From an uncultured Bermanella sp. (GTDB taxonomy: Bacteria > Pseudomonadota > Gammaproteobacteria > Pseudomonadales > Oceanobacteraceae), in the NCBI GenBank assembly GCA_913058575.1, contig CAJXRF010000022.1, positions 1-64,000 of the forward strand: DNA of 64,000 nt. The letters run 5' to 3'. The notes beneath the pieces were generated by a model, which saw nothing but the letters and a program-made list of their open reading frames with translations, was not told the DNA's origin and did not search any database. Shown here one piece after another: positions 47,513 to 60,239 of the stretch. Positions within the stretch are counted from its first letter, which is position 1. Every line of letters begins with the position of its first letter. The position numbers were made by a program, and so were the translations under genes.

Positions 47513-48172
47513 ATGACCCAAGCCATTATTCAGCTCTATTCATTGGCAACCCCTAATGGGGTAAAAGCCTCCATCGCTTTAGAGGAAATGGGCCTTGACT
47601 ATGATGCTCACAAAATCAATATCATGGAAGGGGATCAATTCACACCTGAGTTTATTAAATTAAATCCCAATTCAAAAATACCCGCCATTCAAGACCCTAA
47701 CGGCCCCAATGGCAAGGCCATTGATATAATGGAATCAGGGGCTATTCTCATTTACCTTGCCCAAAAAACAGGAAAATTACTGCCAACCGATCCCCATCAG
47801 CATTCACAAGTTTTGCAGTGGTTATTTTTTCAGGTAGGCCACATTGGCCCTATGTTTGGACAGTTTGGGCATTTCTTCCGATATGCCACCGAACAATGTG
47901 ATCACCCTTATCCGGTGGAGCGTTACACCAATGAAACCAAAAGATTGTTAGAGGTACTTGATAAAAAGCTGCAGGGCCAAGATTTTATTGCCAACAATCA
48001 ATACAGTATCGCTGACATTGCTATTTTCCCCTGGGTGAACTGTTTAACTGAATTTTATGAGGCCGGTGATGCGTTAAATATGAACCGCTTTAAGAATGTT
48101 AATCGCTGGTTAACCACCTGCCTAGAGCGTCCTGCTGTTAAAAAAGGCATGAAAGTATGTGGCTTTGATTAG
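47513..48172 (+). CDS. Glutathione S-transferase family, YfcG/YghU-like disulfide reductase
   Basis: A 219-residue enzyme. The N-terminal thioredoxin-like domain starts IIQLYSLATPNGVKASIALE; the T-P-N-G motif and lack of a catalytic Cys match YfcG and YghU, which reduce disulfides using two glutathione molecules. The helical domain carries SIADIAIFPWV. ATG 47513 is set by AGGA seven bases upstream; the earlier ATG at 47426 adds 29 unrelated residues. A strong terminator follows. Confidence 0.88.
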   Translation: MTQAIIQLYSLATPNGVKASIALEEMGLDYDAHKINIMEGDQFTPEFIKLNPNSKIPAIQDPNGPNGKAIDIMESGAILIYLAQKTGKLLPTDPHQHSQVLQWLFFQVGHIGPMFGQFGHFFRYATEQCDHPYPVERYTNETKRLLEVLDKKLQGQDFIANNQYSIADIAIFPWVNCLTEFYEAGDALNMNRFKNVNRWLTTCLERPAVKKGMKVCGFD

Positions 48173-48211
48173 CGTTAAATTTAACGCCTGCAATGAATAA
48201 CTGATTCAATC

Positions 48212-48263
48212 AAAAGACCCAAGCCCATCAATTTATCTAGAAATGAATGGGCTTGGGTCTTTT
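48212..48263. terminator. Strong hairpin between convergent genes
   Basis: The arms at 48212-48228 and 48247-48263 are exact reverse complements over 17 bases (core AGACCCAAGCCCAT), with an 18-base loop. A-rich and T-rich ends give T residues on both strands. It probably terminates both the GST gene and the convergent DUF1302 gene. Confidence 0.85.
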
Positions 48264-48323
48264 ATATTTACACTTTCTAATTTTCGCTTTCTAAAAACTA
48301 AAGGCCCTTATGCTAAGCGCTAT

Positions 48324-49631
48324 TTATTCAAAGCCCCAGTTAACCCCAGCAATGACCCTATCCGCTTCATCAAATTGCCCAAACAAGCCATTATGATTCC
48401 CATAAAAATGATCACCCCCTATGTAAACATCTATATTAGCCTGCAGGTTATAATTCAGCGTCACTTGGTTTAAGCCATCTTTATCATTAAGAGAATAAAG
48501 GGACAAAACCTCAAAGCTTAAGGTTTCATTTAAAAACTTCGATTCCCACATGAAAGACAATTTACTGTCTTGCTGGTCGATAACCGCATCGGATGCGTTT
48601 TGTAAAATATGGCTTTGAAACAACTGAGCCGACACAAATTGATCGCTCCACCCTTGCCAGTCTAATCCCACCACATAAGACACCACATCCGATTCTACCA
48701 CTCCGGGGAAGGCCTCTTTGCTGCGCAGATATTGATCGGTTTCATAGGCCAGTTCAGTGCGCACAATCCATTGACCTAAAGACGTACTGGCACTGCCACC
48801 CACAAGATGACTGCGTTCATAGTTCTGGCTCACCTCAATCATATCCCCTGTAAACTTAGCTCTCACCACAGGCGTATCTCCATAGTGATACAGGTAATTA
48901 ACCGAAACATCCCAACCAGATACAAAACTCACCAACCGTAACCCTAGGTCACTGTCTTTTAATCCACCATCTGGGGCTTGGGCTTCTTCAATTTCTACCG
49001 CCACCCCAGAGGGAACTTGAGGCACCAAAGTAGAGCTGGTAAAAGCATATGGTGAAGAAGCACTGGCTAATTCATGGGCTGTGGTGTCGGTAATAAGCAA
49101 AGCTTGTAAAGTGCTGTCTTCCCCCACATTCATTTCAGCGTTCACCATCCATAATGGAATGCGCGAATCATCAAAATCATCCAAGGTAAACTCACGATAA
49201 CTTTGTGGGTTTATTTTATCCAACAGCTTCAGGCCATCCGCTTCACCCCATACCACTTGCTGCTTACCAACCCTCCAATAAACATCATCCGTGGACAGTT
49301 GCCAGTACAACTCTCTAAGCTCGACGAAACCTTCTTTACCGGTTTTAAAGGCCGAACTTTCAGTGGAGAAAGAGCCCGGCGATTGGGTATCAGCAGAATT
49401 AAGACTGGAATCGGAATCCCAACGCAGGCGTGCAATCGCCGTTAAGTCCCCCTGATAAAAATCGCGATTCAACTCTGCATCCAAAAGCCATTCTTGTTGC
49501 TGTTGTTCATTTTCTTGAGTGCCAAAAACATTTTGGTTTTTTAACATGCCGCTAACCTCCACGGCAGCTGCCGTGGACGCCAAACCGGTTAATACCAAAC
49601 CCCCTAGCACAGTATTAACGTGGGTTTTCAT
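48324..49631 (-). CDS. DUF1302 family outer-membrane protein
   Basis: A 435-residue exported protein. The signal peptide ends in STAAA, and the mature chain opens VEVSGMLKNQNVFG and contains ELYWQLSTDDVYWRVGKQQVVWGEADGLKLLD, the recognised core of DUF1302 proteins, which are predicted outer-membrane barrels. It closes with VIAGVNWGF and a final Glu after the Phe. The start overlaps the stop of the RND fusion gene (ATGA), so translation is coupled. DUF1302 genes commonly travel with RND/MMPL and LolA-like genes; a role in moving hydrophobic compounds across the envelope is inference. Confidence 0.85.
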   Translation of the reverse strand: MKTHVNTVLGGLVLTGLASTAAAVEVSGMLKNQNVFGTQENEQQQQEWLLDAELNRDFYQGDLTAIARLRWDSDSSLNSADTQSPGSFSTESSAFKTGKEGFVELRELYWQLSTDDVYWRVGKQQVVWGEADGLKLLDKINPQSYREFTLDDFDDSRIPLWMVNAEMNVGEDSTLQALLITDTTAHELASASSPYAFTSSTLVPQVPSGVAVEIEEAQAPDGGLKDSDLGLRLVSFVSGWDVSVNYLYHYGDTPVVRAKFTGDMIEVSQNYERSHLVGGSASTSLGQWIVRTELAYETDQYLRSKEAFPGVVESDVVSYVVGLDWQGWSDQFVSAQLFQSHILQNASDAVIDQQDSKLSFMWESKFLNETLSFEVLSLYSLNDKDGLNQVTLNYNLQANIDVYIGGDHFYGNHNGLFGQFDEADRVIAGVNWGFE

Positions 49632-52600
49632 CTAGGTACACCTCGAGTGATGGCTTGACGCGTAAATAACTTATCCTTCACTTGAGACTCATAATCCACT
49701 TCTGAAAAAGTAAATTCGGTACTGTGGCCGGTCTTATGGTTTGCCACCTTCATGGTGTGACGCGTCCAAATACCGTCTACTTTGCGCACATCCCCCATGT
49801 TCAGGGTTTTCAATTCATTTAATTTGGTGTCCCAATACTTGGCTTTCAGTACAACCCAATTACTGGGATCCACCCACCAGTGTGCCTTACCGTAGCCCAG
49901 CTCTTTAGCGATTTTTTTACCCTTAGGAACCCCTTCCACCAAATAAGTTAAGGTTCCGTCTATGGTGTCTTGGGCTAATGTGGTGAAGTTATAATCCCGT
50001 GTTTCTACCTTGCCTTCTTTTTTAATGTCTTCGTAGGTGTAGTCTGTCCCTAGAAAATAATCCCCTCTATCAGAGGCCGATATTCGACGCGCTTTTCTTA
50101 ACGCAGGCAAATACAACCACTGATCGTCTTCATTGTCTGGGTAGTCGTAGGTTAAAAATGCCGTGTCTTTAATATTTTTAGGCTTTAAATAAAACAACAC
50201 AGTACGTTTTTCTTCACCGTAATACTTACGGAATCCTAGGGTGTAACGCTCACGCACTTTCCCGCGGCGATCCACCATCTTCATGTGTAATTTACGAGTT
50301 TGTTGAACCCCTTCTTCCACTTGGTTTATATTTTTCGCAATATCCAAACCACTTAATAAGCTGCTTGCTTGGACTGGATTATTCATTAACCCGTAACTTA
50401 ACGCACCAAAAATCACCAATACCGAAGCGGCTTTAAAGGTTTTGATTTTATTCACATCAGAATCAGTTTTCATGTTATCTCCTACCACAAATTTAGGTTT
50501 TACAAGTTGAACTAGAGCCGGTAGCAAAGTAAGGGATACCAAGAAACTGGTCACCACAGACACCGCCACAATTAACCCAAAGCTATTTAATGGAATGACT
50601 TTACTTAACGTCAGTACACCAAACCCCAAAGCCAGTGCAAGCACGTTAAAAAATAACGCACGGCCTGTGCTGGGGTAAAAATCTTGCAGGGTTTGGGTCA
50701 TGTCTTGCGTTTTTGCATAAAGCACTTTCAATCTGTCTATGGTGTGAATGGCAAAATCAACACCCAGCCCAATAGCCACTGCGGCGAACATGGATGTGCC
50801 TACTCCCAATGAAATAGATAAAAAAGCCATAGAGGAATACACCAACAAGATACTGGTTAATACCGGCATCAAGGCATATACCCCTGCCACCATAGAGCGA
50901 AATAATAAAGACGATACCAACCACACTAAAAACAAGGCCAACACCACACCACTAAAGTGACTAACACCTATGTCTTTAATCCAGTGATAAGTAAGCAATA
51001 CCCGACCACTTAGATTAGCTGTCATCAAGTCATCATTTACGGTTTTATCTATATAACTTTGCATGGCTTCCACCACCAACTTGTTTTCAATGTAGGCTCC
51101 TGTATTTAACACCACTCGCACATTGGCAAGGCGATAGTCGTAATCCACTTCTTCTTCAAAGTCAGATGGATCACTAGAGGCGGCATACAACAAAAAATAT
51201 TGGGCAATAAGATCTTTATCTATGGGTAACTTATATTCTGTTTTATCGCCGCCATTTAAAGAACGGTTCATTTGTTTTAAATAATCAACGATAGAGGTGG
51301 CCCCCATGACATGGGGTAAGGTTTGCGCATACTCCTGTAACGCTTCCATCTTGCGCAATACTGAAGGCTCAAATATGCCTTCGTCTTCAGGGGTCTCGAT
51401 AACAACATCCAAATAACTGGTGCCATCAAAATGCTTATTCACCACTCGATCGGCTTTGTATAAAGGCTCACTGGGGTGGAAGTTAGTAATGCGATCTTCA
51501 TTCACAACAATATTCGTAGCGGATATGGCCCCTACGGTAAAAATAATCACCGCCAGCGCCACAATCACCTTGGCTCTTTTTTGAGTAAAGTTCCCCAGCA
51601 CCACCATTACTTTTGCAAAAGCATCGTGATTGGTGCTGCGAATTTGTTTGGCTAAGCCAGCTTGTACTTCGGTTTTTAAAAGCGCCATTAAGGCAGGCAG
51701 AAACACCAAGGAATAAACCCATGCGACGCTGACTCCAAACGCTGTAAAGTAACCAAACGCTTGAAAAGGAGGCATATAAGCGGCCAGTGACAGGCCAATA
51801 AACCCTGCCACTGTGGTGAAAGTAGTGAGCGTAATGGGGCGCCACATTTCCATTAAGGCATGAACAATGGATGCCTTTATTTCTTCATCAGGGAATCGAG
51901 CCCGACGTTCAAAGTACTCGCTGTAAATATGAATGCTATCGGCCACGGCAATACCAATTAATATCACCGGTAACGCATTAGTGATCACATAAAAAGGCAC
52001 ATCAAAAATGACCATGGCCGCCACCGTCATCACCACCGAAGCACCAATAATTAAATTACCCGCTAAGGCCACACCAAAACGCCGAAAAGCCACAATAATA
52101 ATTAACGTGATGATCAAACCGGCTAATGGATTTAAACGTTGCGCATCTGTGTCTATGTAGGTGCCAAAGAACCCTGAGATGGCCCCTTCCCCTGCCACGT
52201 GTACGCTTAAACCGGCAGGCAAGTCATAGGCATTTACAGCGCTGACTAAATCTTTATAAGTTTGCTCCGCCAGTGTTTCATCTAATAACTCGGCCACAAT
52301 GAGTGTGGCAGTTTCATCGTTTGCTAATAAACTGCCCTGATACAAAGGGAAATCTCGTAAGGCTTGTTTAATGGCATTCACTTCACTTAAATCAGTGAGA
52401 CGCTCCTCCATAAAAGAAGAGACCTCCATGCCCTCTTCGGTGCCGGTAATATTATTTTCTGTGGCCAAACTGGTAATGCCATCAGGATCAATATTATTAA
52501 TATCTGCCACTATTTCGCTTAAATCATAAATAGTGTTTAACGCATCAAGGGTAAAAATAGAGCCATCACTTACCACCGACACCACCATAGGATCACTGAG

Positions 52601-52828
52601 CCCAAAAAGGGTTTTAACTTTTTCTCGGTACACAAGCGCAGGATTATCATCCGCCAAAAATGCATCTGATCGGGTGTCTTTCTGAATGCCAGGCACCAAA
52701 GAGAGCATGGCAAAAAACAATATCAAACCGGCCAACACTATTTTTTTCGGGTGATTAACCACCGTTTGAAAGAAACGCCAAGCGGGGCTGTCCTGCGCTT
52801 GAGGTTTGGGTACATTTTCTTGTGTCAT
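49628..52828 (-). CDS. RND/MMPL family exporter fused to a LolA-like outer-membrane lipoprotein-sorting domain
   Basis: A 1066-residue fusion. Residues about 1-775 are an RND/MMPL transporter: 12 predicted helices, two periplasmic domains and paired SSD-like regions (VILIGIAVADSIHIYSEYFE, AAVAIGLGVDFAIHTIDRLK). Residues about 786-1066 start MKTDSDVNKIKTFKAASVLV, a signal-peptide-like segment ending PVQA, and continue as a LolA-like sorting domain (RGKVRERYTLGFRKYYGEEK, DQWLYLPALRKARRI, YWDTKLNELKTLNMGDV). In most genomes these are two adjacent genes. The extra helix would place the LolA-like domain in the periplasm. ATG 52828 has AAGGTGA five bases upstream. A consensus ribosome site precedes the internal ATG at 50473. 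It is followed by DUF1302 in the operon and preceded by marR. Confidence 0.9.
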   Translation of the reverse strand: MTQENVPKPQAQDSPAWRFFQTVVNHPKKIVLAGLILFFAMLSLVPGIQKDTRSDAFLADDNPALVYREKVKTLFGLSDPMVVSVVSDGSIFTLDALNTIYDLSEIVADINNIDPDGITSLATENNITGTEEGMEVSSFMEERLTDLSEVNAIKQALRDFPLYQGSLLANDETATLIVAELLDETLAEQTYKDLVSAVNAYDLPAGLSVHVAGEGAISGFFGTYIDTDAQRLNPLAGLIITLIIIVAFRRFGVALAGNLIIGASVVMTVAAMVIFDVPFYVITNALPVILIGIAVADSIHIYSEYFERRARFPDEEIKASIVHALMEMWRPITLTTFTTVAGFIGLSLAAYMPPFQAFGYFTAFGVSVAWVYSLVFLPALMALLKTEVQAGLAKQIRSTNHDAFAKVMVVLGNFTQKRAKVIVALAVIIFTVGAISATNIVVNEDRITNFHPSEPLYKADRVVNKHFDGTSYLDVVIETPEDEGIFEPSVLRKMEALQEYAQTLPHVMGATSIVDYLKQMNRSLNGGDKTEYKLPIDKDLIAQYFLLYAASSDPSDFEEEVDYDYRLANVRVVLNTGAYIENKLVVEAMQSYIDKTVNDDLMTANLSGRVLLTYHWIKDIGVSHFSGVVLALFLVWLVSSLLFRSMVAGVYALMPVLTSILLVYSSMAFLSISLGVGTSMFAAVAIGLGVDFAIHTIDRLKVLYAKTQDMTQTLQDFYPSTGRALFFNVLALALGFGVLTLSKVIPLNSFGLIVAVSVVTSFLVSLTLLPALVQLVKPKFVVGDNMKTDSDVNKIKTFKAASVLVIFGALSYGLMNNPVQASSLLSGLDIAKNINQVEEGVQQTRKLHMKMVDRRGKVRERYTLGFRKYYGEEKRTVLFYLKPKNIKDTAFLTYDYPDNEDDQWLYLPALRKARRISASDRGDYFLGTDYTYEDIKKEGKVETRDYNFTTLAQDTIDGTLTYLVEGVPKGKKIAKELGYGKAHWWVDPSNWVVLKAKYWDTKLNELKTLNMGDVRKVDGIWTRHTMKVANHKTGHSTEFTFSEVDYESQVKDKLFTRQAITRGVPR
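50471..50483 (-). promoter_or_regulatory. Internal ribosome binding site and in-frame ATG within the RND-LolA fusion
   Basis: Read on the minus strand, AGGAG (50483-50479), five bases (ATAAC), then ATG (50473-50471). The ATG is in frame with the fusion and opens the signal-peptide-like segment of the LolA-like half. It is a perfect Shine-Dalgarno and could give a separate LolA-like protein from the same message. Confidence 0.7.
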
Positions 52829-52861
52829 GTTTTTCACCTTCTCAGTCTAATGCAAACAAAA

Positions 52862-52877
52862 ATGCATACGCATGTAT
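52862..52877 (+). promoter_or_regulatory. MarR-type operator, copy 1 (RND gene proximal)
   Basis: ATGCATACGCATGTAT, 34 bases upstream of the RND start. It shares the consensus ATGYRYAYGCATGTAK with the copies at 52950 and 53418. The right half GCATGTAT is near-symmetric with the left half, as expected for a MarR dimer site. Confidence 0.7.
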
Positions 52878-52889
52878 CATTCAAATATA

Positions 52890-52910
52890 AATGAACATTA
52901 AATATTCATT
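52890..52910. promoter_or_regulatory. 21-bp imperfect palindrome upstream of the RND gene
   Basis: The sequence at 52890-52910 has exact outer arms AATGAA and TTCATT and near-symmetric interior (CATTAAATA). It lies between MarR-type copies 1 and 2 and might be a site for another regulator or overlap the promoter. Confidence 0.45.
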
Positions 52911-52949
52911 GGCGGGTTTTACTATTTAATCCATTTAATGAACATAAAC

Positions 52950-52965
52950 ATGTGCATGCATGTAT
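52950..52965 (+). promoter_or_regulatory. MarR-type operator, copy 2
   Basis: ATGTGCATGCATGTAT, lying between the marR stop codon and the RND gene. It shares the last nine bases, GCATGTAT preceded by TG or CG, with copy 1 and matches the common consensus at nearly every position. Confidence 0.7.
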
Positions 52966-52979
52966 TAACATAAATAAAA

Positions 52980-53408
52980 TTAATTTTTAAGAGCCACTAC
53001 TTGGCGGCTTAGTTCAATAAGGTTATCGGTTTGTGTGGCACCCAACTTTTGCTTAAAGACTTTTTGTGCTTTTTTCCATGGCACCAAGGCTTCGGCGTAT
53101 AAGGCCTCGCCCGACTCAGTGAGTTTCAGCAGCTTTTCACGCTTATTTGCCCCTTGCGCCACACTAATGAAGCCATCTCTAATAAGAGGTTTAAGGGCTC
53201 TTGAAACAGTTGTTTGGTCCATCACCAGCCCCTCTTGAATTTGAGAGGCTGTAATACCGTCTTTGAACATGGAGATAACGCGCAGCACAGAAAACTGCGT
53301 AATACGCAAACCCACAGGTGCTAAGTACTCGTTATATAGCTGACTCATCACGCGGTCGGCTCTACGAAGGCTATGCCCAAGGCAAATGTCAGATTTTTTA
53401 ATGTCCAT
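52980..53408 (-). CDS. MarR family transcriptional regulator
   Basis: A 142-residue regulator with a winged helix: RITQFSVLRVISMFKDGITA, QIQEGLVMDQTTVSRALKPL and the wing RDGFISVAQGANKREKLLKL. MarR proteins normally repress an adjacent transporter until a small, often hydrophobic, ligand binds. It lies 151 bases upstream of the RND-LolA fusion on the same strand, and copies of one 16-bp motif stand both in its own promoter and between it and the exporter, so self-repression and control of the operon are likely. Confidence 0.92.
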   Translation of the reverse strand: MDIKKSDICLGHSLRRADRVMSQLYNEYLAPVGLRITQFSVLRVISMFKDGITASQIQEGLVMDQTTVSRALKPLIRDGFISVAQGANKREKLLKLTESGEALYAEALVPWKKAQKVFKQKLGATQTDNLIELSRQVVALKN

Positions 53409-53417
53409 TCCTAGACA

Positions 53418-53433
53418 CTACATGCATATACAT
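53418..53433 (-). promoter_or_regulatory. MarR-type operator, copy 3 (marR promoter)
   Basis: On the minus strand ATGTATATGCATGTAG, ten bases upstream of the marR start codon. It matches copies 1 and 2 (consensus ATGYRYAYGCATGTAK) and is placed to block marR transcription or translation start. Confidence 0.7.
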
Positions 53434-53557
53434 ATAAGTGCAATAGTGATCGTCCGAAACTAGGGCCTATATATACGAGATATTCATAAAAGTGGGTGGG
53501 TGTTACCTTCAAAAATCCAAAAATATGGAAATAACGGCCTAATTAGCCATGCATAAA

Positions 53558-54646
53558 TTAAGTCATGGAAGTTTTTGAATACACCTCTAAACGATTGCGA
53601 CCATTATGTTTAGCCTTATACAAAGCTTGATCTGAAAATTGCATTAATGCCTCTAAGGTTGCACCACTATGACTAAATTCAGCCACCCCAATTGAAGTGG
53701 TAAAGGCAATGCTTTTATCTTCATATTCTACGCGCAATGCTGCAACGGCTTCCAAAATTTTCTGTGCCATAACACTTGCTAAAGCTTGGTTGGTTTCGGG
53801 CAGTAATATTGAAAACTCTTCACCTCCCAGGCGACCAAAAATGTCACTGGCTCGTAATTGTGCTTGGCAACACTCACTAATAGCCTCTAATACTTTGTCC
53901 CCCCCTTGATGACCATAATTATCATTTATAGATTTAAAATGATCGATATCCAACGCCAAGATTGAAAGGGCATGGCCATAGCGTTTTGAGCGGTTAAATT
54001 CTTTATTGGCCTGCTCCATAAAGTGTCTTCGGTTACTAATACCTGTTAAAGAATCAGTGGCGGCCAGTTTTTTAACGTAACGCAAAGCCTCCCTTAAGGA
54101 TTTTTCAGTGTTCTTTAACTTAGTAATGTCGGTGGAATACATAAATGTACAGCCATCTTCAGTTCTTACCCGAGACACCTGGGTCCACTCACCATGATGC
54201 CTTTCACTTTCAAATGTACTAAACCCTTGGGTTTTCATACTTTCCATGGCACGACGAACCATCCCATCCACATCACCATCATCGGCAATGACCCCTGCCC
54301 CCGTAGCCCATGAGTGACGTAAATTTTCCTCAAAGGAGCGCCCAATGGCCTCGCTTGCTTCATAACCCAAAATGCGCCCCACCGTGTCATTACAAAACAC
54401 CATAATGTCGTTCTGGTCGTATACCCCTACCCCATCTTGGCTGGCTTCAAGGGCCTTTATGATGCGTTCATTTAATTGCTCTAAAGGGAGTTTTTCCATG
54501 GGGTACTCACCACTTTCTGTTTTAATCAATAAAATGAGTATAGTGCAGAATGCAACGATGAAAGGAATCAAAAGAACAGATAAACTGAGCGATACTGCTG
54601 CTTGCTCATTATGGGATGATATAAAAAATATCGGGTTAAAAAACAA
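53558..54646 (-). CDS. Diguanylate cyclase with PAS domain
   Basis: A cyclase making cyclic di-GMP. A hydrophobic helix (VSLSLSVLLIPFIVAFCTIL, residues about 18-40), a PAS domain (EASQDGVGVYDQNDIMVFCN to YSTDITKLKN) and a GGDEF domain with active site RLGGEEF and the inhibitory RxxD motif (RASD) five residues before it. The upstream start is uncertain: the longest frame begins TTG at 54646 with no ribosome site; ATG 54499 (MEKLPLEQL) has GGTGAG upstream and would give a soluble 313-residue protein. No EAL domain is present. It stands alone, between marR and a secreted-enzyme gene. Confidence 0.9.
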   Translation of the reverse strand: MFFNPIFFISSHNEQAAVSLSLSVLLIPFIVAFCTILILLIKTESGEYPMEKLPLEQLNERIIKALEASQDGVGVYDQNDIMVFCNDTVGRILGYEASEAIGRSFEENLRHSWATGAGVIADDGDVDGMVRRAMESMKTQGFSTFESERHHGEWTQVSRVRTEDGCTFMYSTDITKLKNTEKSLREALRYVKKLAATDSLTGISNRRHFMEQANKEFNRSKRYGHALSILALDIDHFKSINDNYGHQGGDKVLEAISECCQAQLRASDIFGRLGGEEFSILLPETNQALASVMAQKILEAVAALRVEYEDKSIAFTTSIGVAEFSHSGATLEALMQFSDQALYKAKHNGRNRLEVYSKTSMT

Positions 54647-54744
54647 ATAGAATATTAAAAATCAGTCTATTCTCATTTAAACCATTAACTTATTTCCGAA
54701 CTAAAAATAGAAACAATATTTAAATCAATCCAACTACTTAAATT

Positions 54745-54771
54745 AAAAAACCTAGCGCCTTTAGCGCTAGG
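54745..54771 (-). terminator. Intrinsic terminator after the metallopeptidase-like gene
   Basis: CCTAGCGC (54751-54758) and GCGCTAGG (54764-54771) form an eight-base GC-rich stem with loop CTTTA. On the minus strand it is followed by six T residues. It lies 18 bases after the stop codon. Confidence 0.92.
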
Positions 54772-54788
54772 TATAAGCTTAACTTAAT

Positions 54789-57494
54789 CTACTGGGCAGC
54801 TATTTTATAATCGTAAACAAATGTTTCGAAGTCCTTAAACTTAGTAGATGGTGTACTGGACACTACCAGATAAAGTTTATCGCCAGAGTTAGCAAACACA
54901 TCAATACTAGATGCAATGCCTGCACTGGTCACAGGAATTTTGTAGTAGGTTCTTTGACCCGTTTGCTCGTTATGAATCACCACCTGTGCTCTAAACTCAG
55001 CATAATCTGGGTTATTCAGCGATGGGTTAATGCCCACTGTGTAACTGCTATTTTGCGTGACATCCACTTCATAAGCATTGTAAGCCCAGGCTCCAATTTT
55101 GTAACGACTGGGTACCGTTAACCATTGGCCATTGGTGCCCGACACATCATAAAATTCAGCAATTTTATTATCCACTTCTTCGCTGGGAATTGGGTCATCA
55201 GAATTATTGTTATTGCCATTCATACGATTAAAGGAAGCAATCTCAGACTCTAAAAAAGTATCGCCATAATCCATATCCCAGGTAGTCACTCGGGAAGCAA
55301 AGTCAGAAAATACTTCACGCATATCAAACCCGGCTTCAGCCAATGACGAATGCATGGCTTCTGTGGGGGTTCCCGATAATGGTGCAAGGTTTAAGTTACT
55401 GCGATTAAACACTCTGCCAATAAAGTTATCGGCCAATACATGATGAGACACATAAAACTCAAAAATGCTGGCGCCATATTGATGCCCGCCTTTTGCGTAA
55501 TCAATAATTCCATCTTCAAAGACTGAGCTTTGTGTCGTCCAAAGGGCCAACTGTGGTTGCAAAGTATACATGCCTAGTAACGAGTCTTTTGCACTGGGTT
55601 TCATGGAGAAAGCACCCCAAGAGGCGGTGGATTCAGCTAAAAATTTAGTCGAACCATTTGTGCGGCTTTGATAGGCGTGAAAGTTTTCGTGAAGCACATA
55701 TTGATTCCATGGATTTTCAAAATTGAATTTACTCACCCATGATTTTCGATAACCATCACTTAACTCTAAGTTTCTGGGCTTAGCGTATTCTTCACATAAT
55801 TCCCCGTGTACATACATGCCGGTGGTTAATACGTTATGTTCCCACGTCATGTCATGGCCACTTAATTGGTATTCAAAGCTGTCTTGCGTGGTATCAGTTA
55901 CCCCTTCAGGCCAAAACATGCATTGATACACACCACACAGGTAATTAGGGTACTCAGGATTAGGCACAGGCAAGCTCTTAGCATCATCACAGTCTTGAGC
56001 CAATTCTAAAATCTCGGCAGCGCTTAAGGCTGTATCAAATATTCGAACATCCCACACTTTACCAGGATAAGGGCCAATATTAAGCTGGCCTGCTAACGCT
56101 TTAAGCGTGCTTTCATCCACAGCCATTTGAGAAGATTGGCCGTTGAAATAACTTTTTATGGCCCCCTCATCAACCTGAAAAGCCACATGGTTACAACTGC
56201 GATGCTTTAAAAGACTACTATCGTTTAGTAACGTGACCGCCACGGCATCAGTGGCAAAGGTAGCCGAAATCGTACCGGCTATTTCCTCAACCGTTAAAGT
56301 ATCACTTTCCATAATCACCGCACTTTGGTCATCGCTTGCGGGAATCATTTTAAATGATAAGGTCATGGGACCAGCCAGTGTATTATCAGCAAAATCCATG
56401 TTGATACTTTTATCGGTCATGTCGGTGGTGGATTCAAAGGTAAATAAGTCGTCACTCTCATCATGGGGCAACAAGGTGGTGCTTAGGGTGTGTTGATTGC
56501 TTGATAAATCTTCATAAGCAAACTGCAATGGTGCGTAGGCAAATAAATTCGTTAATGGGCCGTCGTCAATTTGTGCTAATTGGCAACTGGCTTCGCAGCG
56601 ATTATTCGAACAACTCTCACCTGTGCCGCACCCGCCACAACTAAGTGTATTGCCTAATCCATCGCGCACTGCCCCACATTGAGCGCCTGCCGCAGCACAC
56701 ACGGCCACAATTTGATTCTCATCAATGGCTTCACAACGGTTACTATTGCAACTTGAATCGGTTGAACAAGAACCACATTGCAAGGCGCCCCCTAAACCAT
56801 CATCAATGTTGCCACACTGGGCACCCTGAGACTCACAAACGTTAGCGGTATTATTGGAAGCAATAGAAAGGTTATCAAACTGGGCCACGTTGTTAGCTGT
56901 AATAGAGTGAGGGCTGGCCGCTAAACCTAAATAGATATTCTCACCCATGGCCACTGTTTTCTGAGTGGTCAGTGTCCAATCAACCCCGTCTAAAGAGTAA
57001 TAGCCAAAAAATTCATTGCCAGTTCGCTCTAATTTTAACCACACCGGTCCAGTGCCCACATTACGCCCCCAGTAGTAAGAGCGCTCGCCCTGCACTGGGC
57101 GCCATTGAAAGGCCACATGCTCGTGTGCTGAATAATCCAGTGCCACATTAACCGAGTCAGACGACAACGTTTCACGAAACATCACCGCCCCTTTTGCCCA
57201 AGCATGCGTATTCTCAACGCTTAACACCCGTACCGTAATACTGGCATCGCCACTAATAGGTACATACACATAATAAAAATCATCACTGCTGTTCCAGATA
57301 TCATTACCTGAACCGGTAAGCGTAATGACCCCTTGATCCTCAGCCACAGAGCCCGGTACGTTTATATTGCCTATATCCAACTTTTGCCAAGTTGAAATAC
57401 TGGCAGAATAACTGGCAGACGATGCAATTAAAAACATGATTGAAATTAAACACGCCACGAGACGGCTTAACAAACCCATTCGAGGTATTTTCAT
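54789..57494 (-). CDS. Secreted multidomain predicted zinc metallopeptidase
   Basis: A 901-residue exported protein. Signal peptide (cleavage near residue 31); a beta-sandwich module (about 32-220) of the DUF1349/concanavalin kind, nearly identical to that of the next gene; two Cys-rich repeats (CESQGAQCGNIDDGLGGALQ type, about 221-305); a LamG-like domain (about 310-495); then a catalytic region with HENFH at 601-605 and Glu620 in FLAESTASW, a HExxH-plus-Glu zinc site resembling DUF6055 or gluzincin peptidases. A C-terminal beta domain follows. The start has GGGAA upstream and a terminator follows. It has no GlyGly-CTERM tail. Substrate is unknown; the partner enzyme suggests glycoproteins. 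Confidence 0.78.
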   Translation of the reverse strand: MKIPRMGLLSRLVACLISIMFLIASSASYSASISTWQKLDIGNINVPGSVAEDQGVITLTGSGNDIWNSSDDFYYVYVPISGDASITVRVLSVENTHAWAKGAVMFRETLSSDSVNVALDYSAHEHVAFQWRPVQGERSYYWGRNVGTGPVWLKLERTGNEFFGYYSLDGVDWTLTTQKTVAMGENIYLGLAASPHSITANNVAQFDNLSIASNNTANVCESQGAQCGNIDDGLGGALQCGSCSTDSSCNSNRCEAIDENQIVAVCAAAGAQCGAVRDGLGNTLSCGGCGTGESCSNNRCEASCQLAQIDDGPLTNLFAYAPLQFAYEDLSSNQHTLSTTLLPHDESDDLFTFESTTDMTDKSINMDFADNTLAGPMTLSFKMIPASDDQSAVIMESDTLTVEEIAGTISATFATDAVAVTLLNDSSLLKHRSCNHVAFQVDEGAIKSYFNGQSSQMAVDESTLKALAGQLNIGPYPGKVWDVRIFDTALSAAEILELAQDCDDAKSLPVPNPEYPNYLCGVYQCMFWPEGVTDTTQDSFEYQLSGHDMTWEHNVLTTGMYVHGELCEEYAKPRNLELSDGYRKSWVSKFNFENPWNQYVLHENFHAYQSRTNGSTKFLAESTASWGAFSMKPSAKDSLLGMYTLQPQLALWTTQSSVFEDGIIDYAKGGHQYGASIFEFYVSHHVLADNFIGRVFNRSNLNLAPLSGTPTEAMHSSLAEAGFDMREVFSDFASRVTTWDMDYGDTFLESEIASFNRMNGNNNNSDDPIPSEEVDNKIAEFYDVSGTNGQWLTVPSRYKIGAWAYNAYEVDVTQNSSYTVGINPSLNNPDYAEFRAQVVIHNEQTGQRTYYKIPVTSAGIASSIDVFANSGDKLYLVVSSTPSTKFKDFETFVYDYKIAAQ

Positions 57495-57890: not shown

Positions 57891-60239
57891 TCACCTTAAA
57901 TATAAATTATTTATTTCATCCGCAGTTAATTGTTTACGGTACAAGCGCACATCATCCATATAGCCTTTAAAGGCGTTTGAGCTACCGTTGCCACCACCCG
58001 AACCATCACCTATGGCCGACTCATACTTATTAATCTCGCCCGATAAATCACTGATACTGGCTTGCCCCACTTCTTGGCCATCAATATACAAACGCATTAA
58101 TCCTTCAGAAAAACCAAAGCTGGCTGCCACATGATGCCATTGCCCATCGGTCAAATTAACATTCCCTGCTATGAAGCTTTTCGTTTTATCTATATGAGTA
58201 TTGTGATCATAGCTGCCCACAAAGCCTTTTATGGCGGTGCCATTATTGGCAAGGGTTAATGCAAAACCTGAGCGAGAATTATAATAATATTTATTACTCA
58301 TGAGAATTTGCTCGGTACTGACACCCGCATCGGGTTTTACCCATATGGCTAGGCTAAAGTCTTCATCCGTGGTGAGATTTAAAAAATCATAAACCGGATA
58401 TTGGGTTAAATAATGCAACAAAGTGCTGCCATCAAAATAGGCAGAGTGGCCTATGGCACCGGGATGTTCAAAACTCACTGAATTTCTTACAACCTTAGCC
58501 GTGACACCTGATGCAGCGTCGTTAATGGGTTCTGCATTCGTGTTATCAAAATCATAATGCAATGCTAACGCATCGCTATTATCTCGTACCCACACAGTGA
58601 CCTTCGCAGCATTGCCCATGCGCCCATTGTTCGTGCTGGTGTATTCAAAGCTATCGGCCCCAACAAAGCCCATATTAGGCTGGTACACGAAACTGCCATC
58701 ACTGTTTAAGGTTAAGGTGCCTTGAGATACATCCCTAAATAAAGTGGCCGAAGTGACCCCCACATCATTGTTTAAAATGCTGTCATCCACATTGATGACC
58801 AATTGATTACCAGGCAATACAGTAAATTCATCATTCACGGTTACCGCGTAATTGAGTTGTGACAATGCAGCTTGTGCAATGCGCTCACCGATCACGATGT
58901 AACTATCATTGCCATAATGGTAATAAGGACGCTGATCACCTGTATACACCAGTTGAGCCAAGGGATCTTCTTGCACCACTTTTGCTTGTGCTGCCATCAC
59001 AATATCTCCGGCCACCCCTCGGTTATCATTTATTTGGGTAATGATGACAGGTAAATCAGGCAGGCTTAAATCATCTCGTACAGATGATATTAAGTTTGTT
59101 AAATGGTCTTCATATAGCCCTTCGCTGCCAAATGTGTCGTTATACCCCTGAAACCAAATAAAGCCGGCTATTTCATAATCTATATTATTAGCCACCATTT
59201 CAGTTTGAATAAAATCGTTAAAGCCTGTTATGAGTTGATCGTACAAGTTACCTTCAACACCCCCATGAGCAAGAGGTCGCCAATGGGCAGTATTGTCCAA
59301 TGTGGTGCCACCTTGTGAGCCTTTAAATAAATAAACATTTTCAGGTAACACATCCCCTAGCACATTACCCATTTTTAATTCCACACCGTATTTACTGCTG
59401 CGCTCTCCAAAACCTGGGGCCAAACCTGAAAGGCCGCGATTATTAGAAATAATATTCTTCATAAATACATCGCTGCGCTGGGCGGTTAAATCGAACCCCG
59501 AAGTATCTGCTAAACCACTGTTGGCACCATGACCCTGCATATTAGACTGCCCTGCCATTAAGTAGATTTTCACCTTGTCATTAAAGGGCTGTACCACTTG
59601 AAGGTCAGAAAAAACCACTTGGTTATTCGCCGTACTAACATGAGGGCTGGCTGCTAAGCCCACATAAATATCTTCACTCATTTCAATGGTTTTACTGGTG
59701 GTTAATTGCCAATTAACCCCGTCTAATGAATAGTGCCCCGTAAAGAGATCCCCTTTTCTGTCAAGTTTTAACCACACAGGCCCTGTTCCTACATTTCGGC
59801 CCCAATAATAAGAGCGCTCATCTGCTACTGGGCGCCACTGCAGCGCCACATGTTCATGGGCTGAATAATCTAAGGCAACATTTTTTGATCCGGTATCCAA
59901 CGACTCACGAAACATCACCGCGCCCTTAGCCCAAGCTTGTGTGTACTCAACGCTTAACACTTGGGTAATAATAGTGGCATCCCCTTTAATGGGTTTATAC
60001 ACATAATAAAAATCATCATGGTCATTCCAAATGTCATTTCCCGATCCGTTTAACGTAATAGTATTATTATCACTGATGAAACTGCCCGGTAAATTCATCT
60101 CGCCGATATCATTGGCCGACCAACTCTGAATATTCTCTGAAGAAAGACATGTAATAGGTAATATCAACGCTGTCATCGTTATACTCATTACTCCTTTGGT
60201 TAGTTTAGGTTTTAATTTTTTACACCAGACATTTAACAT
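57891..60239 (-). CDS. Secreted predicted sialate O-acetylesterase (SASA/CE6) with accessory domains
   Basis: A 782-residue exported protein. A signal peptide near residue 34; the same DUF1349-like module as its neighbour (about 35-215, GNDIWNDHDDFYYVYKP, SYYWGRNVGTGPVWLKL); an SGNH esterase domain (about 222-450) with IYLMAGQSNMQGHG, FKGSQGGTTLD and GFIWFQGYNDTF, the order seen in sialate O-acetylesterase/CE6 enzymes; a tandem beta repeat (VLPGNQLVINVDDSILNNDV, about 465-560); and a C-terminal LamG domain (about 565-775). It would remove acetyl groups from glycans outside the cell. GAGGAG precedes the ATG by six bases. The shared module with the adjacent predicted peptidase implies a common target. 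Confidence 0.82.
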   Translation of the reverse strand: MLNVWCKKLKPKLTKGVMSITMTALILPITCLSSENIQSWSANDIGEMNLPGSFISDNNTITLNGSGNDIWNDHDDFYYVYKPIKGDATIITQVLSVEYTQAWAKGAVMFRESLDTGSKNVALDYSAHEHVALQWRPVADERSYYWGRNVGTGPVWLKLDRKGDLFTGHYSLDGVNWQLTTSKTIEMSEDIYVGLAASPHVSTANNQVVFSDLQVVQPFNDKVKIYLMAGQSNMQGHGANSGLADTSGFDLTAQRSDVFMKNIISNNRGLSGLAPGFGERSSKYGVELKMGNVLGDVLPENVYLFKGSQGGTTLDNTAHWRPLAHGGVEGNLYDQLITGFNDFIQTEMVANNIDYEIAGFIWFQGYNDTFGSEGLYEDHLTNLISSVRDDLSLPDLPVIITQINDNRGVAGDIVMAAQAKVVQEDPLAQLVYTGDQRPYYHYGNDSYIVIGERIAQAALSQLNYAVTVNDEFTVLPGNQLVINVDDSILNNDVGVTSATLFRDVSQGTLTLNSDGSFVYQPNMGFVGADSFEYTSTNNGRMGNAAKVTVWVRDNSDALALHYDFDNTNAEPINDAASGVTAKVVRNSVSFEHPGAIGHSAYFDGSTLLHYLTQYPVYDFLNLTTDEDFSLAIWVKPDAGVSTEQILMSNKYYYNSRSGFALTLANNGTAIKGFVGSYDHNTHIDKTKSFIAGNVNLTDGQWHHVAASFGFSEGLMRLYIDGQEVGQASISDLSGEINKYESAIGDGSGGGNGSSNAFKGYMDDVRLYRKQLTADEINNLYLR

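Follow-up and report, generated by a model that had tools for sequence, protein, structure and literature searches.

The gene at 49628..52828 on the reverse strand of a 64,000-nucleotide stretch of an uncultured Bermanella genome (contig CAJXRF010000022.1, positions 1 to 64,000; hereafter the window) joins an RND transporter of the MMPL type and a LolA-like periplasmic carrier in a single frame. We favour, with a confidence only a little past the midpoint, the view that its product is a polyprotein, which signal peptidase I would split at an internal signal peptide into a transporter and a free carrier in a 1:1 ratio. In the proposed sequence of events, the 12-helix transporter (HAE3/MMPL type) would insert with both its ends in the cytoplasm, and a linker with one further hydrophobic segment, here called segment 13, would serve as the internal signal peptide that takes the LolA_like part into the periplasm. 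Signal peptidase I would then cut past Ala821 to yield a transporter of about 90 kDa and a carrier of about 29 kDa in equal numbers and in the same place. Together with a barrel of the DUF1302 family encoded downstream, these would carry a hydrophobic substrate, either alkane-related or some other lipid, between the inner membrane, the periplasm and the outer membrane. From the comparisons below we infer how the protein inserts, that it is cleaved, that its products are 1:1 and what the substrate is. A broader version, which we put forward tentatively and as close to evenly balanced, is that such polyproteins recur: an RND pump for lipids or hydrocarbons and its carrier would emerge 1:1 from a shared translocon, and the carrier's signal peptide would act as a 13th helix only until signal peptidase I removed it, with the fused state gained or lost several times and a cut-site motif in each fused junction that we read.

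The open frame extends over 49628-52837 on the reverse strand and, from the ATG at 52828, encodes 1066 residues followed by a stop. Translation, Pfam and hydropathy bear out an earlier note on this DNA, which had described a 1066-residue frame with a 12-helix MMPL/RND transporter followed by a LolA-like domain. Hydropathy peaks mark 12 helices and one additional segment at residues 798-814, and Pfam finds MMPL (best stretch 583-776) and LolA_like PF17131 (873-1062, E 1.4e-51); the latter scores 175 bits against a cut-off of 30 and, with its LolA-type fold, places the C-terminal part in the LolA_like family, while a DUF1329 match in the same part is weaker. The Pfam match, the 12 helices and the RND fold likewise place the N-terminal part among MMPL/HAE3 RND transporters. 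The best NCBIfam model, TIGR00921 (HAE3), scores 227 bits, below its curated cut-off of 351.9, and for this reason we call the transporter HAE3-like only. The gene can be divided, all on the reverse strand, into a transporter part (residues 1-784; 50477..52828), a stretch holding the linker, segment 13 and the cutting motif (785-821; 50366..50476) and the carrier part (822-1066, 28.7 kDa; 49631..50365). The hydrophobic core of segment 13, which we read as an internal signal peptide, is encoded at 50387..50437 (798-814), and the codon of Ala821, the predicted -1 residue of a cut NPVQA|SS, lies at 50366..50368.

The AlphaFold model of the whole protein, built on a 44-row alignment, has a mean predicted local distance difference test score (pLDDT) of 86.2 and resembles RND structures of the MmpL5, MmpL4 and NPC1 type; residues 785-823 fall below 50, with confident parts on either side, which speaks for cutting. 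The LolA part modelled alone reaches a mean pLDDT of 93.5, and its best Foldseek matches are 9tp6 (LolA3 of P. gingivalis), 3bk5 and 4z48, followed by LolA and RseB. No structure in a viral library matched at E 0.001 or better, and an Rfam scan of 48000-55000 gave no match.

The evidence for cutting comes from 58 distinct fused junctions, which we compared with 31 distinct split pairs, all with transporter parts at least 40% identical; the junctions were drawn from searches at genome, order and class level and from a scan of named genome contigs (the best 80 of 126 relatives). Just past segment 13, which in the window ends in NNPVQA at Ala821, every one of the 58 junctions carries a candidate cut site with Ala (57) or Ser (1) at -1 and Ala, Val, Leu, Ser, Thr, Gly, Met or Ile at -3, and at 44 of the sites the +1 residue is Ser, Ala, Gln or Glu. 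These sites were chosen by eye, and the count of 58 is biased for that reason. The linker varies widely among the junctions in both length and sequence. We compared 26 pairs of junctions that had been picked by hand from the tree described below, mostly neighbours and not all independent, with a mean junction identity of 0.41. Position -1 was identical in 21 of the 26 and was the most conserved of the positions listed, compared to 15 for -3 and 5 for -2; in 25 pairs -3 was small or aliphatic. The Ala at -1 was kept in 21/26 cases versus 68/140 for other Ala residues of the junctions (Fisher p 0.0026). Thus a hydrophobic segment followed by a small-x-Ala site is present throughout by eye, and the pair test supports it at -1. 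Cleavage by signal peptidase I best accounts for such a junction, in which -1 persists as -2 and the remainder of the joint drift.

Two stricter patterns point the same way. The first, [AVS]xA with a non-hydrophobic residue directly after it, occurs at 43/58 ends of segment 13 versus 55/344 ends of six other helices that run from inside to outside; a second rule gives 42/58 versus 58/344, and finds 24 of the 31 signal peptides of split LolA-type proteins. The split LolA-type genes, which have ordinary signal peptides, show ends of the same kind as the fused junctions. The distribution of charge is that expected for an N-in/C-out segment, with a mean net charge of +1.5 over the 15 residues before segment 13 (above zero in 39/58) and of -2.0 over the 15 residues past the cut site (below zero in 49/58). 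It thus fits the suggestion in the earlier note that the helix at the junction would lead the LolA-like domain to the periplasm.

Several results weigh against cutting, and most concern how well the motif discriminates. The loose pattern [AVSTLI]xA is found at 53/58 ends of segment 13, yet also at 51/56 ends of helix 1 and 55/57 of helix 3, and reaches 46.9/58 when the ends are shuffled; we discarded such loose patterns as discriminators, since helices 1 and 3 match them about as often as segment 13 does. The [AVS]xA-type pattern is found at 24.5/58 of shuffled ends, and among split signal peptides at 16/31 (14.0 when shuffled). The second rule gives 35.7/58 in shuffled ends, misses the site in the window and 15 others, and, applied to the window's own genome, accepts 38 of the 76 N termini of secretory type as well as 7 of the 22 first helices taken from polytopic proteins. 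A cut-site matrix built from 28 split signal peptides discriminates poorly, with an area under the receiver operating characteristic curve of 0.73, places 17/58 junctions above the 95% level of the controls, and frequently favours a site other than the one picked by eye. Among the pairs, conservation at -3 is nothing out of the ordinary (compare +3, 17/25, and -13, 16/26). The hydrophobic stretch of segment 13, with a median length of 18.5, is not shorter than that of several true helices, and length likewise failed as a means of telling signal peptides from helices. Finally, the low pLDDT at 785-823 may reflect only a poorly aligned linker.

The last points bear on the main rival to cutting, in which segment 13 is never cut and stays in the membrane as a 13th helix, keeping the carrier next to the transporter and letting substrate pass within one molecule. 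We regard this as unlikely, though well short of negligible. The length of the segment resembles that of real helices, the loose motifs do not tell it from helices 1 and 3, and a benefit from covalent linkage would explain why the fused state has lasted over a large branch of the tree and appears in further rows elsewhere. An uncut anchor needs no Ala at -1, yet this position is kept in 21 of the 26 pairs as -2 and the linker drift, and AlphaFold shows no helix at segment 13 (pLDDT below 50). Signal peptidase cutting therefore remains the reading that we prefer.

The earlier note had arrived at two products by a different route. It pointed to an AGGAG (50479-50483) that stands five bases before an in-frame ATG (50471-50473, Met786; the whole at 50471..50483 on the reverse strand), followed by a segment ending in PVQA. 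Both are present, and the note took the former as the remnant of an old start codon. The congener, the other junctions and the codon context rule out such a relic. An ATG within two codons of this place is found in the window only, in 1/58 fused junctions; the congener, whose protein is 78% identical (L007), has no ATG there and reads GNASADD; and the GGA-GAT of the putative ribosome site encodes Gly783-Asp784, with which the transporter tail closes and where Gly recurs in 28/58. Because it is unique to the junction in the window and its GGA-GAT consists of transporter tail codons, the AGGAG-ATG is probably recent, and it may be due to chance. Outside junctions, an ATG preceded by a site of at least five bases occurs at 11 of 60,040 in-frame codons, or by calculation at about 0.5% per 29-codon junction, so that 0.31 would be expected across the 58 junctions against the one seen. 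The fusion itself exceeds chance; the ribosome site and ATG of the window do not clearly do so.

The AGGAG-ATG could nevertheless be a working start in the species of the window, in which case the cell would make the full-length fusion and, from Met786, a free LolA_like protein whose signal peptide is cut normally, the two starts setting the ratio between transporter and chaperone as the earlier note had suggested. The site is a good one, in frame and 12 residues ahead of the hydrophobic core, and with the threshold lowered to at least four bases such sites appear in 5/58 junctions from three lineages (L006, L049, L065, L068 and L070) compared to 1.8 expected. However, three of these (L065, L068 and L070) are close relatives that share one GGAG...ATG site, the congener and altogether 53/58 junctions lack an ATG with a four-base site, no other junction has an ATG at the place seen in the window, and the GGA-GAT is accounted for as transporter coding sequence. 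An in-frame start with a ribosome site is thus not kept in close relatives, and we consider dual initiation improbable for the window, though an internal start is possibly genuine in the lineage of L065, L068 and L070. The junctions of these three have the string GGAGCAATCAATTATG in common, and the residues after it diverge. Of the idea that two products come from one frame, what stands is the conserved signal-peptidase-type motif, which means that they would probably arise by cutting; two separate ribosome starts find no conserved support. Overall, the interpretation in the earlier note is partly supported, and the conserved internal site of the cut type is the part worth testing.

We turned to relatives of the gene for the origin of the fusion. 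Orthologues in the same and in other genera are 42-78% identical, each in one uninterrupted frame of 1053-1110 codons from stop to stop. Of the 55 genomes searched, that of the window included, 54 match the fused protein in some part. At the cut used, matches are found in 3 of the 9 genomes that belong to the genus and, across the family, in 9 of 44, both counts including the window's own genome and one (G004) in which the match is a split paralogue of 29% identity; at E 1e-130 or better they are found in 21 of 293 genomes of the order and 8 of 369 of the class, its own genome again counted in both. The fused gene is therefore an accessory gene. All 73 matching plasmid records are below 60% identity. 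Two further junctions (L185 and L186) add nothing as an out-of-sample check because they are identical to those of L080 and L083. The earlier note had proposed comparing relatives for split and fused forms, and both exist. In split relatives the two genes stand in the same order as the fused parts, as a merger of adjacent genes would have it, and in 8 of the 31 split pairs no more than one in-frame stop stands between the two frames, so that in these the loss of one stop would yield the fusion.

A quick tree, built by maximum likelihood from 99 transporter rows and rooted at the midpoint, places 50 of the 57 fused rows on one branch (Shimodaira–Hasegawa-like approximate likelihood ratio test 99), together with one split row and one row without an assigned state; the other seven fused rows fall outside it. 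Six changes of the fused or split label are required on the tree, of which starred branches force at least four; each may have been a fusion or a split. Some labels come from metagenome bins and are possibly misassigned. The alternative that two genes were misread as one through an assembly or frameshift error, or that a sequencing error removed a stop codon between them, has next to no probability. The genome is a draft of 186 contigs and distant relatives are split, both of which would fit such an error; against it, fused junctions, 58 of them distinct, occur in many genomes, and the frame is open too in the congener and in orthologues from other genera and families, which rules out the loss of a stop by missequencing.

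Outside the tree lies a distant MMPL-LolA fusion of A. baumannii, about 24% identical and with a polyketide-cyclase-type domain in front, which is likely independent of the main branch. It also has a stretch like segment 13 at the joint, ending TSHA|DE. Its frame (L143:2024-5686, forward strand; 1221 codons with the polyketide-cyclase-type, MMPL and LolA_like domains) adjoins a gene that looks like a peptide synthetase; it may be A1S_0116 of the lipopeptide cluster. In a paralogue (L141:3-3692, reverse strand) the MMPL frame runs on into a cytochrome P450 (PF00067, E 2.5e-78) and is open up to the contig end. Reading its sequence we see no stretch like segment 13 at the joint, which fits a partner of the cytoplasmic type. 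Another MMPL transporter (L142:2187-5495, forward strand) is fused, also at its C-terminal end, to a PGA_cap domain of capsule synthesis. The genome of the window (G000) holds four more LolA_like relatives (L002, L003, L004 and L005), 29-32% identical, and two of them, L002 and L004, adjoin separate MMPL genes.

Around the fused gene, an operon in the order MarR - MMPL - LolA_like - DUF1302 is largely kept. Upstream lies the gene of a MarR-family regulator (52980..53408, reverse strand), and downstream that of an outer-membrane-type protein of the DUF1302 family (48324..49631, reverse strand), whose start codon shares bases with the stop codon, TGA, of the fused gene (ATGA). Relatives of the DUF1302 protein are found in 54 of the 58 fused loci and of the MarR protein in 46, several of these loci being cut short. 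At higher coordinates, also on the reverse strand, 54789-57494 and 57891-60239 encode two large proteins of secreted type with a similar N-terminal region, the second of which has a DUF1349-like stretch (below the cut-off), a SASA esterase domain and Laminin_G_3.

A limited literature search turned up no description that we recognised of an RND/LolA polyprotein separated by signal peptidase. A precedent for the arrangement is FbcH, the cytochrome b/c1 precursor of Bradyrhizobium, which holds a polytopic membrane protein and a periplasmic protein in a single chain until cleavage at an internal signal peptide parts them; it belongs to a respiratory complex, whereas the system in the window is a transporter. 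If the cut is real, genes of this kind are misannotated as one giant transporter when they encode two proteins. Little is known of how RND pumps of the HAE3/MMPL type hand hydrophobic cargo over to periplasmic carriers, and the persistence of the fusion across a large branch and its occurrence elsewhere suggest that pump and carrier operate as a pair.

For the carrier, the nearest solved fold is LolA3 (PDB ID: 9tp6; 30% identity, template modelling score 0.86), which stands alone as a protein, carries a signal peptide of its own and, according to the available parts of PMC13103446 and PMC11885536, binds LolB only very weakly; those parts name no transporter that would be its partner. A LolA-like cluster of Borrelia was set aside as a parallel, since the accessible text of PMC13078400 describes an ATP-binding cassette system. 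Thalassolituus oleivorans MIL-1 has a very probable orthologue: TOL_3187, which is very probably our L011, is described in PMC6304351 as a protein with MMPL and LolA-like parts that is 42-fold up on the n-C28 alkane. The fusion is real and old, and for one orthologue it is very probably already in print. The available part of that paper proposes export of a porin for TOL_3187/TOL_3188 and is silent on the junction, on any cutting and on a free LolA-like product; it also assigns no conserved domain to TOL_3188, yet the gene following L011 matches the DUF1302 protein of the window (31%, E 2.9e-75).

A functional counterpart is AmeABCD of Castellaniella defragrans, proposed as a monoterpene exporter in the portion of PMC6394551 available. 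An HAE3-type RND pump, a DUF1302 outer-membrane protein and a periplasmic protein of the LolA superfamily are part of AmeABCD, and all three are encoded together in the window. The two differ in that AmeABCD consists of four separate genes, AmeC (COG4447) among them, while pump and carrier are fused in the window, where a Pfam scan of four genes (48324-54646) found no COG4447 (AmeC-like) gene; the carriers differ too, AmeB being a DUF1329 protein and that of the window a PF17131 protein with the weaker DUF1329 match. By analogy, then, the system in the window would work like AmeABCD, and we do not class it as a member. Since TOL_3187 is induced on n-C28 and AmeABCD is a proposed monoterpene exporter, the cargo is likely a hydrocarbon or lipid, and the two together point toward hydrocarbons.

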